A DNA stretch of 64,000 nucleotides, taken from Thermosynechococcaceae cyanobacterium MS004 (GTDB taxonomy: Bacteria; Cyanobacteriota; Cyanobacteriia; Thermosynechococcales; Thermosynechococcaceae). Made by a program: the position numbers and the translations under genes. The stretch covers positions 62,001 through 126,000 of the forward strand of contig JAKRSB010000099.1 of assembly GCA_022402525.1 (NCBI GenBank), read 5' to 3'. Below the pieces are notes generated by a model. It worked only from the letters and a program-made list of their open reading frames with translations, was not told the DNA's origin and searched no databases. Positions 33,022-64,000 of the stretch are shown in pieces. How positions within the stretch are numbered: the first letter of the stretch is position 1; each line of letters starts with the position of its first letter.

Positions 33022-33719
33022 TAATGTGATGAGGAAGTATTCCTAAAACTATCAAACCTCACTTCATAGGGCATGCCGTTACAGATAACACTTTTTAGCT
33101 CGCAAAACCAGTCCACAGTGGACAGTCAGCAATTCCAAACTCGGAATGTATAACAATCGTCATCACTATGGCACCAGCTTCAACATACTCTCCATTTCAT
33201 TCCTCAAGTCACTAAATTGGAATTGTGTTGAGATATGTAATGGTAGGACGATCAATCAAGTGAGTTTTAAAGACATTGCCATACTGCTCTTGGCACACAG
33301 CAATAAAACTCTCTGGATTCAGGGTAAGCGCAAGGATAAAGATAACGATAGTGGGTAGAGGTTATAGGATACCCAATTCTCCAGCAGGATCATCACGCCA
33401 AAAGTTTTTTTGAAGAATGACTACTGACGTAATGACGTAAGTTGAATCAACTGACTAGTACAGCTTGGCACAAGTAGACTTACCATCTAAGAGGACATTT
33501 GGAAAGTACCCTGCAATCCTTATAGAGAGAGACTTTGCTGAATAACGACGAAAACTCGTCAAACTCCCTAATGCCAAAGGTTCTAGCTGAGTTTCCAAAC
33601 ATCCTCTAAAGTATATCCAGAAGTATATCCAGAAAGAGTTCTTCTATCCCATGTGACGGAACCAGTGCCATAAAATCCCAAAAGATAAAATCCCAACAGA
33701 TAAAACTGAGTAGGCTAAT
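33022..33719. other. Non-coding region at the boundary of the glycan island
   Basis: About 700 bases separate the divergent co-polymerase and prohibitin genes. A 70-codon open frame (33146-33358, plus) has no recognisable domain, and I do not call it a gene. The segment near 33110 contains GTCCAC A GTGGAC, a perfect six-base palindrome. Two near-repeats (AAGTATATCCAG at 33611 and 33623; AAAATCCCAA-type at 33674 and 33688) lie just before the prohibitin start. The region should hold both promoters; none is obvious. Confidence 0.4.
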
Positions 33720-36247: not shown

Positions 36248-36753
36248 GCCGTATTGCTCAAGTAAAGTGGGACAAAACCCTTGATCGATAAAAAGCCCAA
36301 AATGGCCTCGCTCTAAAATCTTTTCTCTTAACGTGCTCTGATTTTAGATGTAGCGCATTAGATAGAACTCTAAGTGCTGTCGTCTAAGAATCATGGGCTC
36401 TGCGCTAGATTTAGGTGCTCAAGCAATATTGTTTTGGTGACGTTGCTCTGGCTATATTGCTCTGGCTATATTGCTCTAGTTATATTGCCCTAGATTCACA
36501 CCTTTCCTGACTTCCGCAATCTGGCTTCGGACTTTGGCCTCAATTCCCTACTTCTAAGATGAGGGGATCGCCAACCTCCTAACCCGTTGCTGAATTTTTT
36601 CAGTCTCTGCCTTCAGCCCACGCTCTCCAGAGTGTCCAGCTTTTTCATCATGACACTTTTCCTCCCTATCAGTGTTGAATTCTGACTCACGGTGTTCATA
36701 CTAAGAGCAGTGCAGCAGTCTCTACTGTCCTTTGTTAATCAGAAGACTTGATT
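36248..36753. other. Non-coding gap with a 14-bp tandem repeat
   Basis: No gene is seen between the divergent kinase and small membrane protein genes. Positions 36442-36497 hold about four copies of a 14-bp unit (GTTGCTCTGGCTAT, ATTGCTCTGGCTAT, ATTGCTCTAGTTAT, then a worn copy). The gap must contain two divergent promoters, but I could not single out either one. Confidence 0.55.
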
Positions 36754-37245: not shown

Positions 37246-37571
37246 TCTGTCCATTCTGCCTATTCAAAACTCTCAATCTGTATTACACCCTCCACCATTC
37301 ACTCCAGCCACACTTCATCACAGCAGTACATCACAATAGACCATCACAAAAGCCCCAAAGCAGCATGCCATAAAAAAGACTGCTCCAGCCAAGATGAAGC
37401 AGTCCACTTAGATTGAATCAATCAGAGGACTTGAATCAATAAGAGGGATTGAACCAATCAGAGGAATTGGATCAATCAGAGGATGCATCTAAAAAAGGCT
37501 CAGGGCCGAGTGCTGCCAAACAGCCATGAAACCTAGAAGGCTTACGATGATAGCTCTACCGCCACCGCCCC
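37246..37571. repeat. Intergenic region with four 18-bp tandem repeats
   Basis: Positions 37412-37483 are four copies of an 18-bp unit (ATTGAATCAATCAGAGGA with one to three changes each). The rest of the 326-base gap contains no gene that I can support. On the minus strand, the PsbY message would run into this region. The six Ts read from that strand near 37491-37496 could be part of its terminator, although the preceding stem is weak. Confidence 0.65.
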
Positions 37572-37796: not shown

Positions 37797-37862
37797 TGAA
37801 CCAGCTTGATTTGCTCTAGCTTGATTTATCCCAGCTTGATTTGTCCCAGCTTCATTTGTCTC
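37797..37862. repeat. Imperfect 13-17 bp tandem repeat
   Basis: Four copies of CCAGCTTGATTTGTC-like units occupy about 37801-37860, between the psbY promoter region and the 3' end of the ferrochelatase-family gene. They cover the stretch where a terminator for the latter would be expected; no hairpin of that kind is seen. Confidence 0.7.
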
Positions 37863-47574: not shown

Positions 47575-47906
47575 CAAGGGAGTGACCGCTGAAACTACAG
47601 CAGTTTGACTTATGCCCGCTAAGATAAGTTATGGGAGACAGCGAATGAATAAGTCCTGCGGGCAGGCTACGCCAACGCGCCTACAAGACCAACGGGTCTA
47701 CAAGAACAACGGGTCTACAAGATCAAAGTCTGCCGATGCAGACTAAATACATCAACGGCTCCAGCAGTTCGCCTGTGCGGATTTCGTTCTTGGAGCTGCG
47801 GTTTCAATCGCCAAGCGAAAAGCTTTGTCAGAAAGATACCAGTCAATCAGGCCGTTTTCTCTTGCAAGAATGGGTTCTCAATCGTTAATGTTTTGGGTGA
47901 TTTGTA
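47575..47906. other. Intergenic region with tandem and dispersed repeats
   Basis: Positions 47681-47730 hold three copies of a 17-bp unit (CTACAAGACCAACGGGT and variants). 47795-47829 is the inverted partner of the repeat at 39888-39923. No gene is seen. The promoter of the following small transporter gene is presumably in the last 60 bases. Confidence 0.65.
47795..47829 (-). repeat. Dispersed ~35-bp repeat, copy 2
   Basis: Reads GCTGCGGTTTCAATCGCCAA on the plus strand, the inverse of the copy at 39888-39923 with a few changes. Confidence 0.65.
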
Positions 47907-53281: not shown

Positions 53282-53320
53282 CATGAGTGATGAGATTAGC
53301 GGCCCATACAACAATCAGCG

Positions 53321-53364
53321 CTAGTCTGTGACCACTAATCTGTGAGCACTAGTCTGTGAGCACT
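53321..53364. repeat. 16-bp tandem repeat overlapping the kinase stop codon
   Basis: CTAGTCTGTGAGCACT-like units occur three times (53321-53364). The unit spans the 3' end of the histidine kinase, so the last codons (VSAHRLVLTD) are repeat-encoded. Confidence 0.7.
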
Positions 53365-56145: not shown

Positions 56146-56240
56146 CAAAGCTTACTGATAAAGCCTACGGGCAAAGCTTACTGATAAAGCCTACGGGCAA
56201 AGCCTACTGGCAAAGCTTATGGGCAAAGCTTACGGGCAAA
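56146..56240. repeat. 24-bp tandem repeat
   Basis: CAAAGCTTACTGATAAAGCC-type units (24 bp, then shorter 12-bp derivatives such as GGCAAAGCTTAC) fill 56146-56240, immediately before the secreted protein gene, about 50 bases from its ATG. Confidence 0.8.
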
Positions 56241-59326: not shown

Positions 59327-62300
59327 ATGACGCAGAATCCGCCACCCGCAAAATTTAGCATCAGTGGAATCGCCATTCGTCAGCACATCGGTACGCTGAT
59401 GTTGACCCTGGCCGTTATGGTGATCGGGGCATTTTATATCTCAACGCTCCAGGTTGACCTGCTGCCTTCCATTACCTATCCCCGCATTGGGGTGCGGCTG
59501 AGCGCTCCCGGCCTTTCCCCAGATATTGCCATTGACGAAATTACCCGTCCCCTCGAAGAAGCCCTTTCCGCCACCGAAGGCGTCGTGCAGGTTTATTCCC
59601 AAACCCGTGAGGGGCAGGTCAACATTGACCTTTACTTCGAGCCAGGGGGCAATATTGACCAGGCACTCAACGAAGCCACCGCAACCTTTAACCGCGCCAG
59701 AGGTCAGTTGCCTGACACCATCGAAGCACCGCGACTTTTTAAGGTAGACCCTTCCCAGCTTCCTATTTATGAATTTGCCCTCACCTCACCGTCACTCACT
59801 TCCTCAGAACTGCGCGTCTTTGCTGAAGAAGAGTTAGGACGTGAGCTGAGCGTTGTGCAGGGCGTGGCCAACGTTGATGTGTCCGGTGGCGTAGACGAAG
59901 AGGTGCGGGTCGTTTTGGACTTGGAGCGTCTTCAGGCCCAGGGCATTGGCCTTTCTGCCGTCCTAGATAAACTCCGTAACTCAAACCAAGACATTTCTGG
60001 TGGGCGCATTCTCGGCGAAACTTCTGAACCACTGACCCGTGCAGTCGGGCGATTCCAGTCAGCAGAGGAGTTACGCAACCTATCCTTTGAGGTGGCAGGC
60101 GCGTCTCAGGCCCCAGCCCAGAGCGGAATCGGGACAGCACCGACTCCGGCACGGCGGGTTTACCTGCGCGACTTTGCTGAGGTGATTGATGGCACCCAGC
60201 AGCAGCGGATTTTTGTCAGCCTTAACGGTGAGAATGCCGTCAAAGTGAGTATTCAAAAGCAGCCGGATGCGAACACGATTAATGCGGTTGAAGGGGTTAA
60301 GAAGCGCGTTGCAGAGCTGAAGGAGTCGGGGCTGATTCCTGCTGACATGGGGCTACTCCCAACGCTAGATGAGTCGGTCTTTATCCGCAACGCAGTCTCT
60401 AACGTAGCCACCTCAGGGCTGATTGGAACCGGACTCGCGGCGATCGCCGTTTTACTGTTTCTGGGTTCGCTCCGCCAAACCCTCATCATTGTGGTGTCCA
60501 TTCCTTTGGCAACCCTCGCCGCCATTATTTTAATGGGTGTTTTTGGGCTTTCTCTCAATGTGTTTAGCTTAGGGGGGCTAGCCTTGGGGGTCGGGATCGT
60601 GGTGGATAATTCCATCGTGATGCTAGAGGCCATTGCCGAAGGTGCAGGCATGACGCCGGGGCATGACACCAGCGCGAAGCTCAGCCTTAAGCAAATGCTG
60701 CATCAGTCTTCAGTGAGTAGTCAAGAGGTAGAGTCTGCTCTCTTGGCCTCCACCAGCACCAACCTCGTTGCAGTCCTACCCTTTTTACTCATCGGGGGCT
60801 TTATCGCCCTCTTGTTCAACGAGCTGATTTTGACCATTAGCTTTTCCGTAGCAGCTTCTATCTTGATTGCTGTAACCGTCGTGCCGATGATGGCTTCTCG
60901 ACTTTTATCAATCCGCAAAAGCAGCGGCATTGGCAACTTTTGGCCGTTGCGGCAGTTTAATAACCGATTTGAAGATGCCGTTCGTAGCTATGCTGCGACG
61001 CTCCGCTGGGTGTTAGTTCATCGCTGGCTGGTGGTAGGCGTCATTGTCTTAACTTTTGCCAGCAGCAGCCTCTGGATGATTGGCCAGATTCCCCAGGAAA
61101 TTTTGCCGCGTATTAACACTGGCCAAGCCAACCTAAACGCTCAGTTTCCGCCCGGTACGCCTTTGGCAACGAGCCGCAAGGTCATGGCCGCCACGGACGA
61201 AATTCTACGAGAGCAGCCTGAAACGGAGTACGTCTTTACCACAATTGGGGGTTCGCTGTTTGGCAGTAACACCACCGAAAATGCTCTGCGTAGCTCTAGC
61301 AACATTACGCTGAAGCCCGGTACTAATGTAGAAGCCTATGTTGAGCGGGTCAATCAAGCATTTCGTAAGCTCAATCTCGTGGATATTCGCCTACGTCTCA
61401 GTCCTGGACAGGTGCGCGGCCTCATTTTAAACAACTCTCCTGTCCGGGGCGCTGAGGTGGATATCATGCTTCAGGGGCAAGACGCCCAAGTCTTAGAGCG
61501 GGCGGGGAGAGAGGTTTTACAGACTTTGGAGGAGCGGGTAACGCTGGCCAGCTTTCGGCCTGATGCAGATGATCGCCAGCCTGAAATCCAAATTCGACCT
61601 GACCGTGAACGGTTGGCTGCTCTTAACCTAACGATTCAGGATATTGGGAATACCTTAGAAACCGCAGTTCAGGGTACCGTTCCAACTCAGCTTCAGCGCG
61701 GCACCCGCCTCGTGGATGTACGGGTCGAGCTAAACGAAGATGACTTGAAGCAGCCATCCCAGCTTTTAAGGCTGCCCCTATTTGTAGCGGGCAATCGTCA
61801 GATTCGCTTGGCAGATGTGGCGCAGATTGAGTCTGGGCAAGCTCCAGGGCAAATTCAGCGCATTAACCAGCGCCAAGTCTTCATCATTGCTGGCAACCTG
61901 ACAGAAGGAGCATCCCTTGGCAATGCGATCGCCCAGGTCAATGAGGTGATGCGCGAAATTGACCTGCCGGAAGGCGTGACCACCCTCCCCAGTTCCGCCG
62001 CAGAGAGTAACCGCCAGCTTCAGGCAACCCTGCCTATCCTGGGTGGGCTGGCCGCTTTTATGGTGTTTGTGGTGATGGCGGTGCAGTATAACTCTCTGAT
62101 TGACCCGCTGGTGATCATGTTCACCATTCCCTTGGCGCTGGCGGGGGGAATCTTTGGCCTCTTTATTACCCAAACGGCGATCGGCGCAACGGTGATTGTG
62201 GGTGCGGTCTTACTGGTGGGGATTGTGGTCAACAACGCCATCATTATGGTGGAGTTGGCCAACCAGATCCGTGAGCGGGAAGACTGCGATCGCTACACCG

Positions 62301-62629
62301 CAATCCTCAAAGCTGCCCCCCAGCGCTTGCGCCCCATCTTAATGACGACTATTACAACCGTCCTGGGGATGTTTCCCCTCGCCTTGGGAGCGGGGCAAGG
62401 GGGAGAATTTTTGCAACCTCTTGGGATTGTGGTGTTTTCAGGGCTATCGATCGCGACCGTCTTGACGCTGTTTATTATTCCCTGCTTTTACCTGATCATT
62501 CACGACATCTTTTCGGGCCGTGGGTCGCGAGGAGGCCGAATCCCCGCAATGGTGGATATGGATATAGACATTCCGGTTCTTCCCAGTCGGGAACCGATTC
62601 ATAAACTGTCATCCGAACCAGGTGAATAG
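59327..62629 (+). CDS. RND efflux transporter (HAE1/AcrB-like)
   Basis: The 1100-residue inner-membrane pump has twelve helices and two large periplasmic loops. TM1 is IGTLMLTLAVMVIGAFYIST; LLPSITYPRIGVRLSAPGLS and GVVQVYSQTREGQVNIDLYF are typical of the porter domain. GVGIVVDNSIVMLEAIAEGA (TM4) carries the proton-relay aspartate. GIVVNNAIIMVELANQIRER and TTITTVLGMFPLALGAGQGG are the C-terminal repeat. It partners with the upstream adaptor and exports hydrophobic compounds or metals. Substrate unknown. No outer-membrane factor gene is adjacent. Confidence 0.95.
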   Translation: MTQNPPPAKFSISGIAIRQHIGTLMLTLAVMVIGAFYISTLQVDLLPSITYPRIGVRLSAPGLSPDIAIDEITRPLEEALSATEGVVQVYSQTREGQVNIDLYFEPGGNIDQALNEATATFNRARGQLPDTIEAPRLFKVDPSQLPIYEFALTSPSLTSSELRVFAEEELGRELSVVQGVANVDVSGGVDEEVRVVLDLERLQAQGIGLSAVLDKLRNSNQDISGGRILGETSEPLTRAVGRFQSAEELRNLSFEVAGASQAPAQSGIGTAPTPARRVYLRDFAEVIDGTQQQRIFVSLNGENAVKVSIQKQPDANTINAVEGVKKRVAELKESGLIPADMGLLPTLDESVFIRNAVSNVATSGLIGTGLAAIAVLLFLGSLRQTLIIVVSIPLATLAAIILMGVFGLSLNVFSLGGLALGVGIVVDNSIVMLEAIAEGAGMTPGHDTSAKLSLKQMLHQSSVSSQEVESALLASTSTNLVAVLPFLLIGGFIALLFNELILTISFSVAASILIAVTVVPMMASRLLSIRKSSGIGNFWPLRQFNNRFEDAVRSYAATLRWVLVHRWLVVGVIVLTFASSSLWMIGQIPQEILPRINTGQANLNAQFPPGTPLATSRKVMAATDEILREQPETEYVFTTIGGSLFGSNTTENALRSSSNITLKPGTNVEAYVERVNQAFRKLNLVDIRLRLSPGQVRGLILNNSPVRGAEVDIMLQGQDAQVLERAGREVLQTLEERVTLASFRPDADDRQPEIQIRPDRERLAALNLTIQDIGNTLETAVQGTVPTQLQRGTRLVDVRVELNEDDLKQPSQLLRLPLFVAGNRQIRLADVAQIESGQAPGQIQRINQRQVFIIAGNLTEGASLGNAIAQVNEVMREIDLPEGVTTLPSSAAESNRQLQATLPILGGLAAFMVFVVMAVQYNSLIDPLVIMFTIPLALAGGIFGLFITQTAIGATVIVGAVLLVGIVVNNAIIMVELANQIREREDCDRYTAILKAAPQRLRPILMTTITTVLGMFPLALGAGQGGEFLQPLGIVVFSGLSIATVLTLFIIPCFYLIIHDIFSGRGSRGGRIPAMVDMDIDIPVLPSREPIHKLSSEPGE

Positions 62630-62683
62630 ACCGCAGCAATTCACTTGACCCAGGTTCCAAACCCTTTCCAGAACCCTTTCCAG

Positions 62684-62713
62684 AACCCTCTCCGGCAAGG
62701 GTTTTGGATTTTT
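62684..62713 (+). terminator. Terminator of the RND pump gene
   Basis: AACCCT, loop CTCCGGCA, AGGGTT, then TTGGATTTTT. The stem is six pairs; its left arm is the last of several CCCTTTCCAGAA tandem copies (62657-62692). Confidence 0.65.
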
Positions 62714-62733
62714 AGAAACTTCTGAGCGATTTA

Positions 62734-62769
62734 GATGTGTTTGGCGATGTGTTTGGCGATGTATTTGGC
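62734..62769. repeat. 12-bp tandem repeat
   Basis: Three copies of GATGTGTTTGGC, the last with one change. Confidence 0.85.
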
Positions 62770-62788
62770 TGGATATCTTTTCAAGTTC

Positions 62789-62815
62789 TTGACATTCTGT
62801 CGCTAAAGTTATGAA
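62789..62815 (+). promoter_or_regulatory. Candidate promoter for the downstream small RNA
   Basis: TTGACA at 62789-62794 and TATGAA at 62810-62815, spaced 15 bases, which is slightly short. It lies upstream of the candidate RNA at 62893-62978 and could produce a transcript of about 155 bases, so a second start site closer to the RNA may exist. Confidence 0.4.
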
Positions 62816-62892
62816 AACAAAGAGCCAACGTTAACAATCGTGCTTCAGTGCCGGTTGTTTCCAGTCTGGTCACGATCATCTCTTCTCCTCAT

Positions 62893-62978
62893 ACGAGAGA
62901 CTCGTGGGCTGATCAAACTTGGATCTTTTGTTCCTCACACCTAGACTGTTCCCAGCCCAGTGCTGGGAATTTTTTTTT
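62893..62978 (+). ncRNA. Candidate Yfr1-like small RNA
   Basis: A short hairpin ACGAG-AGA-CTCGT (62893-62905) and an unpaired stretch containing TTCCTCACAC (62931-62940) are followed by a strong terminator hairpin TTCCCAGC-CCAGT-GCTGGGAA plus nine Ts (62949-62978). Cyanobacterial Yfr1 has this layout: two hairpins around an unpaired CCUCACAC core. The core here agrees at its last eight to nine bases, with one or two changes at its 5' side. The length is greater than marine Yfr1. The terminator is unmistakable, and no protein gene ends there. Confidence 0.5.
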
Positions 62979-63130
62979 GATGCTTTCCCCACAGCACAGT
63001 TGTCCACGATTCTGTAGAGGAGAGGCAATGTACCTCTTGTGCTGGTGTATATTTCATGAGTATCAAATTCATGGGTATCAAGCTCAGAGTGGAAGGCAGT
63101 TTATGCAGGTAGCGTTATGCAGGTAGCGTC

Positions 63131-64000
63131 ATGCAGGTAGTTTTGTGTGGCTACTATGGTTACGGCAATGGCGGCGATGAGGCGCTCCTCGCTACCCTTT
63201 TACAGATGTTGCCGAAGCATGTCTCTCCCGTTGTCCTCTCCGGGAATCCAGCTTTTACCGAATCCTTGCATGGGGTGCCCGCCTGCGATCGCCGTCAGCC
63301 CCTAGCGGTATTAAAACTATTGCGTAGCTCACAGGCTTTTATCTGGGGGGGCGGTAGCTTAATTCAAGACTCGACGAGCGCCCTCAGCCCTTGGTACTAC
63401 TGTGCATTGCTGCTCACGGCTCAGCTCATGGGCCTAAAAACAATCGCTTGGGCCCAGGGCATTGGCCCCCTTAACCGTCCCCAAACCCAATGGATTGCCC
63501 GTCAAGCCTTTCAGCGCTGTACGGGCATTAGCGTCCGCGATCTTGGCTCTCTGGACTGGACTGAGCGCTGGCGGCGGAAAGCAACCCTTGCTCCAGACCC
63601 GGTCTGGGCATTGGACGCCAGCCAGCCGACCACTTTAGATCCACTATTGCCCAGTCCTCGTGTTGCGGTCGTCCTGCGATCGCATCCCCTCTTAACGCCA
63701 GAACGGGTTGCGCTAATCACTCAGGCGCTTCAGGATCTTCATGCCCAAACTCAAGCCTCCATTGTGTTGGTGCCGTTTCAGGAAAGTCAGGATCTGGCGA
63801 TCGCCCAAACGCTCCATACCGCGCTGCCCCACATCAGCCAAATTATTCAGTCCCGTGACCCGCGCGCGCTCAAGTTTGTGTTTCAGAGCGTAGATCTGGC
63901 GATCGCTATGCGGCTCCACGGCCTCATTATGGCCGCAGCAGAAGGCTGTCGCTGTTTTGGCCTCAGCTACGACCCTAAAGTGCAGCGGCTCATAGAAGAC
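63131..64000 (+). CDS. csaB: Polysaccharide pyruvyl transferase CsaB (3' end beyond the window)
   Basis: The open frame runs off the window with 290 codons visible. VVLCGYYGYGNGGDEALLAT at the N-terminus and GGGSLIQDSTSALSPWYYCA are hallmarks of CsaB, with TIAWAQGIGPLNRPQTQWIA and, late, LAIAMRLHGLIMAAAEGCRC (R-L-H-G motif). CsaB transfers pyruvate ketals to cell-wall polysaccharide, giving a charge that anchors S-layer proteins in bacteria that have them. It sits about 30 kb from the glycan locus. Its start codon is part of a triplicated 14-bp repeat, of which only this third ATG opens the frame. Confidence 0.92.
   Translation, partial: MQVVLCGYYGYGNGGDEALLATLLQMLPKHVSPVVLSGNPAFTESLHGVPACDRRQPLAVLKLLRSSQAFIWGGGSLIQDSTSALSPWYYCALLLTAQLMGLKTIAWAQGIGPLNRPQTQWIARQAFQRCTGISVRDLGSLDWTERWRRKATLAPDPVWALDASQPTTLDPLLPSPRVAVVLRSHPLLTPERVALITQALQDLHAQTQASIVLVPFQESQDLAIAQTLHTALPHISQIIQSRDPRALKFVFQSVDLAIAMRLHGLIMAAAEGCRCFGLSYDPKVQRLIED

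Follow-up and report, generated by a model that had tools for sequence, protein, structure and literature searches.

A triplicated 14-bp unit at the csaB start codon is probably one tolerated product of lineage-specific short tandem duplication in Thermosynechococcaceae cyanobacterium MS004

The csaB gene in the window (the whole 64,000-nucleotide stretch analysed here) starts in the last of three 14-bp units that are arranged head to tail, each in another reading frame. With a probability of roughly four in five, this array is one among the tolerated products of a lineage-specific process of short tandem duplication, with units of 11–17 bp and a mode at 14–15 bp, which would duplicate arbitrary sequence throughout the source genome. 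The units and the gene lie as follows:

63103–63116, forward strand: copy 1 of the 14-bp unit, ATGCAGGTAGCGTT, which opens uORF1 (63103–63126)
63117–63130, forward strand: copy 2, ATGCAGGTAGCGTC, which opens uORF2 (63117–63140); uORF2 overlaps the csaB start
63131–63144, forward strand: copy 3, ATGCAGGTAGTTTT, which holds the csaB start codon (63131–63133), conserved across cyanobacteria
63131–64000, forward strand: csaB, polysaccharide pyruvyl transferase (TIGR03609, E 6.9e-106), which continues beyond the window to a predicted stop near 64174

Copies 1 and 2 differ at one base, and copy 3 differs from both at positions 11–12 (GTT for GCG). The original prediction of a 14-bp repeat in triplicate therefore holds for the number of units but not for their identity: the exact 13-mer ATGCAGGTAGCGT is present twice, not three times. 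Its description of the reading frames is borne out. Each 14-bp step displaces the reading frame by two, which puts the three ATGs into three frames, and reading the sequence confirms that the first two units open seven-codon ORFs, each terminated by the TAG of the following unit. uORF1 encodes MQVALCR and ends (TAG at 63124–63126) 4 nt upstream of the csaB ATG, and uORF2 encodes MQVASCR and ends (TAG at 63138–63140) within csaB but out of the csaB frame. Both peptides consist of duplicated csaB codons 1–5 plus two codons from the next unit; copies 1 and 2 give MQVALC and MQVASC against MQVVLC in csaB, and the repeat therefore duplicates the 5' end of csaB.

Membership of the CsaB family is supported by a TIGR03609 score of 353.9 bits against a cut-off of 213.1, obtained with the 290 residues inside the window (model positions 1–287 of 301). 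Most cyanobacterial relatives share the N-terminus M-[QR]-[AV]-[VIL]-L-[CS]-GYYG, which aligns with copy 3, and this homology places the start at 63131–63133, in agreement with the earlier claim that the third ATG alone opens csaB. The simplest history would comprise two successive duplications with substitutions between them: the first 14 bases of csaB would have been duplicated, the upstream copy would have gained the GTT-to-GCG differences, and that copy would then have been duplicated again. This order is suggested because copies 1 and 2 share GCG, and copy 3 and one congener (G002) both have GTT.

Tandem Repeats Finder (TRF) assigned the array a period of 14, 2.9 copies, 96% match and a score of 73. 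It has the form of a minisatellite (VNTR-type; head-to-tail unit of 10–60 bp), and an 802-kb shuffled control contained no array scoring at least 73. The csaB array is thus beyond chance for the base composition, and it is ordinary within the source genome, where 132 arrays in the sampled 802 kb reached that score. A search for the csaB unit elsewhere in the genome gave one further loose match only (contig C109), and the unit is therefore no dispersed element.

The genome-wide sample covered 802 kb (16%) of the source genome, in 31 contigs or stretches of a draft of 150 contigs; arrays were counted at a TRF score of at least 50 and periods of 7–60, and one dinucleotide-shuffled set served as control. 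The sample held 386 arrays against 2 in the shuffle, 158 of them with at least three copies, and if the sampled density holds for the 4.93 Mb genome, an estimated 2,400 or so arrays are present. Exact runs with periods of 11–19 amounted to 34.9 per 100 kb, compared with 2.7 and 3.3 in two congeners, both incomplete drafts (76% and 82% complete) sampled at 221–271 kb each, and with 0.9–2.1 in three further family members. Intergenic arrays reached 174.7 per 100 kb against 12.3 and 2.6 in the congeners, where intergenic means gaps between genes called with a hexamer model of our own making, which overlooks AT-rich genes (65% coding here, less in most relatives), and 44% of intergenic gaps in the source genome contained at least one array. 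In a related observation, the source genome (G000; L114–L162) showed a surplus of 11–17 bp units and of doubled, 26–32 bp units that was about ten-fold or more over the congeners. Examples within the window lie at 36416–36488, 37412–37483, 37801–37860, 47672–47726, 53317–53364 and 56146–56240.

The array counts climbed from period 11 to 15 and dropped steeply past 17. Intergenic periods were unimodal with a peak at 14–15 bp and without frame preference, and the periods of coding arrays were multiples of three in 98% of cases. In comparisons of coding arrays with relatives' proteins, a small sample, the relative had a gap in four of six. No strong motif emerged from the array units, the best 7-mer occurring in 7 of 251 intergenic arrays. 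Among exact two-copy duplications, 47 of 164 ended at the unit border, so that microhomology is not a general requirement; for the remainder, partial third copies obscure the picture. Such a pattern would be expected if mutation acted indiscriminately and purifying selection then screened the outcome within genes. Predicted stop codons were covered by 40 of the 386 arrays and start codons by 6; gene ends tolerate or gather arrays, and C-termini would be extended or altered.

A region of contig C150 (60–95 kb), which covers approximately the first 33 kb of the window, contained no array of score 50 or above, the first appearing at window position 33609. It has 36–43% GC, against about 50–55% over most of the remaining contig, and its genes, as named from their translations, encode glycosyltransferases, sugar epimerases, an ABC exporter pair and a Wzc-like protein, a set that appears to be of the surface polysaccharide type. 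With all samples taken together, 2.5-kb stretches with less than 42% GC held 1 array in about 60 kb, and those of 48–57% GC held about 46–64 per 100 kb. The array-poor island supports the idea that arrays accumulate with time spent in the source genome, and base composition itself could add to the difference. It also bears on the suspicion, invited by a 150-contig draft, that the units are duplicated overlap ends left by assembly. We regard this as barely credible: the copies differ from one another, 158 of the 386 arrays have at least three copies, and an artefact would neither respect codons, as nearly all coding arrays do, nor spare an AT-rich island.

The leader and the gap upstream of csaB contain further features:

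63048–63053, forward strand: TATATT, probably a −10 element, shared with both congeners (G002 and G001 have TGTATATTGCAT, the window has TGTATATTTCAT)
63053–63081, forward strand: another tandem duplication in the csaB leader, independent of the 14-bp array and with a 15-bp unit, TTCATGAGTATCAAA / TTCATGGGTATCAAG
62734–62769, forward strand: a 12-bp tandem array detected by TRF, three copies of GATGTGTTTGGC, in the gap upstream of csaB
62655–62693, forward strand: a 12-bp tandem array detected by TRF, 3.3 copies of TTCCAGAACCCT, in the same gap
62948–62970, forward strand: an intrinsic-terminator-like hairpin with a T run, dividing an RND efflux gene (59327–62629) from the csaB transcription unit

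A scan with the sigma-70 consensus returned no site, and the −10 element was found through congener comparison instead. As the TATATT common to both congeners precedes the array, transcription would begin near 63060, ahead of the three units, and the mRNA probably contains all three ATGs. Leader spacing was taken directly from TATATT, as MAFFT misaligned the divergent leaders. The distance from TATATT to the start codon is 83 nt here and 34 and 41 nt in the congeners; without the two additional 14-mers and one of the 15-bp copies it becomes 40 nt, and the extra leader length is therefore explained by tandem duplications between promoter and gene. The 15-bp duplication also brings ATGs, which open MSIKFMGIKLRVEGSLCR from 63056 and MGIKLRVEGSLCR from 63071 with a common stop at 63110–63112. 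The gap before csaB (62629–63130) holds three arrays inside and one over the start, against about 0.8 expected from the average density; genome-wide, gaps with at least four arrays were not over-represented (2 against 5.7 expected).

The duplication is likely to have been tolerated, as each unit brings its own ATG, so that csaB would keep its frame, N-terminus and start codon at any copy number, and the upstream promoter would be left intact. The predicted Shine-Dalgarno pairing is strongest for the ATG of copy 1 (−5.5 kcal/mol; GGAAGG, 63091–63096), and decoy initiation on the upstream ATGs is therefore possible; copies 2 and 3 (−3.9 kcal/mol each) are predicted to use AGGU within the preceding unit. 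With only 4 nt between the uORF1 stop and the csaB ATG, re-initiation at csaB after that stop is plausible. Under the duplication reading, the two extra ATGs may catch some ribosomes, those terminating on uORF1 could re-initiate at csaB, and the likely net effect would be a modest change in csaB translation and no switch.

The original prediction had gone further and proposed that changes in copy number act as a tuning switch for cell-wall pyruvylation. In that case the units would serve as decoy starts, slippage would set the level of CsaB, and the pyruvylation that anchors the outer membrane would follow. The proposal can draw on the ATG in every unit, on the AGGT that is complementary to the anti-Shine-Dalgarno sequence and lies 6 nt ahead of the next ATG, and on the strong predicted site of copy 1. 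We take slr0688 to be the csaB homologue of Synechocystis. Repression of slr0688 suppressed the pyruvylation of peptidoglycan-linked polysaccharides and detached the outer membrane (PMC9163127), and csaB dosage is important there; by analogy, an altered CsaB level could have consequences here. The phenotype keeps the tuning idea testable and is no evidence in favour of it.

The comparative data speak against such a switch. An array of the csaB type was absent from about 105 other cyanobacterial csaB loci, one genome per species and the two congeners included, and both congeners have a single unit at the csaB start. The nearest repeats among these loci were an in-frame 6-bp ATGGGC present three times (L079) and, immediately before the start in L083, a duplication of 13 bp. 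The former, in Lyngbya sp. HA4199-MV5, is independent and gives three in-frame starts (MGMGMGI); in two other loci (L043 and L061), AATCCAA arrays abut the csaB starts. Within the source genome, arrays over predicted start codons numbered 6 against 10.9 expected under uniform placement, so that start codons are, if anything, avoided, and arrays of the same kind occupy the 44% of intergenic gaps noted above. Copy number leaves the csaB frame and protein unchanged, because every unit has an ATG and csaB starts at the last one; at most the leader changes. Moreover, few-copy 14-bp units with internal mismatches, such as these three, should mutate far less than classical contingency repeats. We therefore consider a copy-number rheostat unlikely.

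Still less likely, and in our estimate very improbable, is regulation by the small ORFs themselves, in which translation of MQVALCR or MQVASCR would sense some condition and gate csaB through re-initiation or leader structure. The short distance between the uORF1 stop and the csaB start would suit it, and GUAGC of the repeats can pair with GCUAC of csaB codons 8–9. However, the peptides are fully accounted for as duplicated csaB codons, they lack the run of identical codons typical of attenuators, and the congeners have no such uORF. Terminator-like hairpins were located only at 62679–62708 and 62948–62970, upstream of the leader, and an Rfam search of 62000–64000 gave no match.

If short tandem duplication is the source of the csaB array, as we prefer, its origin must be sought in a route other than the one described for mammalian cells, where small tandem duplications at staggered breaks arise largely by Ku-type end joining with CST/Pol alpha-primase (PMC8355091). 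Both kinds of duplication are short, of arbitrary sequence and often without microhomology. No Ku (PF02735) was found in the source genome or in any of the 12 relatives searched, a result that speaks against fill-in through Ku-type end joining and calls for another route. MutS, RecJ and PolA are present in the source genome. SbcC (TIGR00618) was missing above the curated cut-off there and also in most relatives searched, and the source genome is therefore not singled out by SbcC alone. Five genomes (G000, G001, G002, G004 and G007) had weak SbcC matches only, some to a 930-residue paralogue-like frame, and two of these genomes are incomplete. Loss of a repair gene was considered as the cause and rejected, as MutS, RecJ and PolA are kept, the lack of Ku is common to all relatives searched and the lack of SbcC above the cut-off to most of them. 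No publication on short tandem duplications in the genomes of cyanobacteria came up in a literature search.

Several known systems resemble parts of this picture. The heptanucleotide short tandemly repeated repetitive sequences of Nostocales and other cyanobacteria likewise form many short intergenic arrays. They are built from 7-bp units of a few fixed sequences. In contrast, the csaB unit is a 14-mer (ATGCAGG/TAGCGTT) that is not two heptamers, the units in the genome are arbitrary and 11–17 bp long, and we found neither a conserved 7-bp unit nor a dominant motif in the 251 intergenic arrays. In Beggiatoaceae, TAACTGA direct repeats are reported to form 169 intergenic sets with a proposed regulatory role (PMC4679880); both cases involve hundreds of intergenic arrays, with one fixed heptamer in that account and no common motif here. 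Phase-variable contingency loci share with csaB a tandem repeat at the translation start of a surface-polymer gene, but the csaB array switches no frame and has few, imperfect copies.

Considered in isolation, the csaB repeat amounts to a tolerated duplication and warns against reading function into repeats at start codons. A more extensive proposition, that an indiscriminate, Ku-independent process has produced some 2,400 arrays with units of 11–17 bp in all of the resident DNA, is rewriting leaders, gene ends and in-frame proteins, and that the two extra csaB starts now influence translation, is tentative, and we would put it somewhat short of even odds. The duplication process, rather than the csaB array, is the part worth pursuing. 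With tandem duplications about ten-fold or more above its congeners and a sharp size class of 14–15 bp, the source genome lends itself naturally to the question of what lesion or defect in repair determines the length of short tandem duplications where Ku is absent, and equally to the question of the rate at which they give rise to new leaders, start sites and in-frame peptide insertions.
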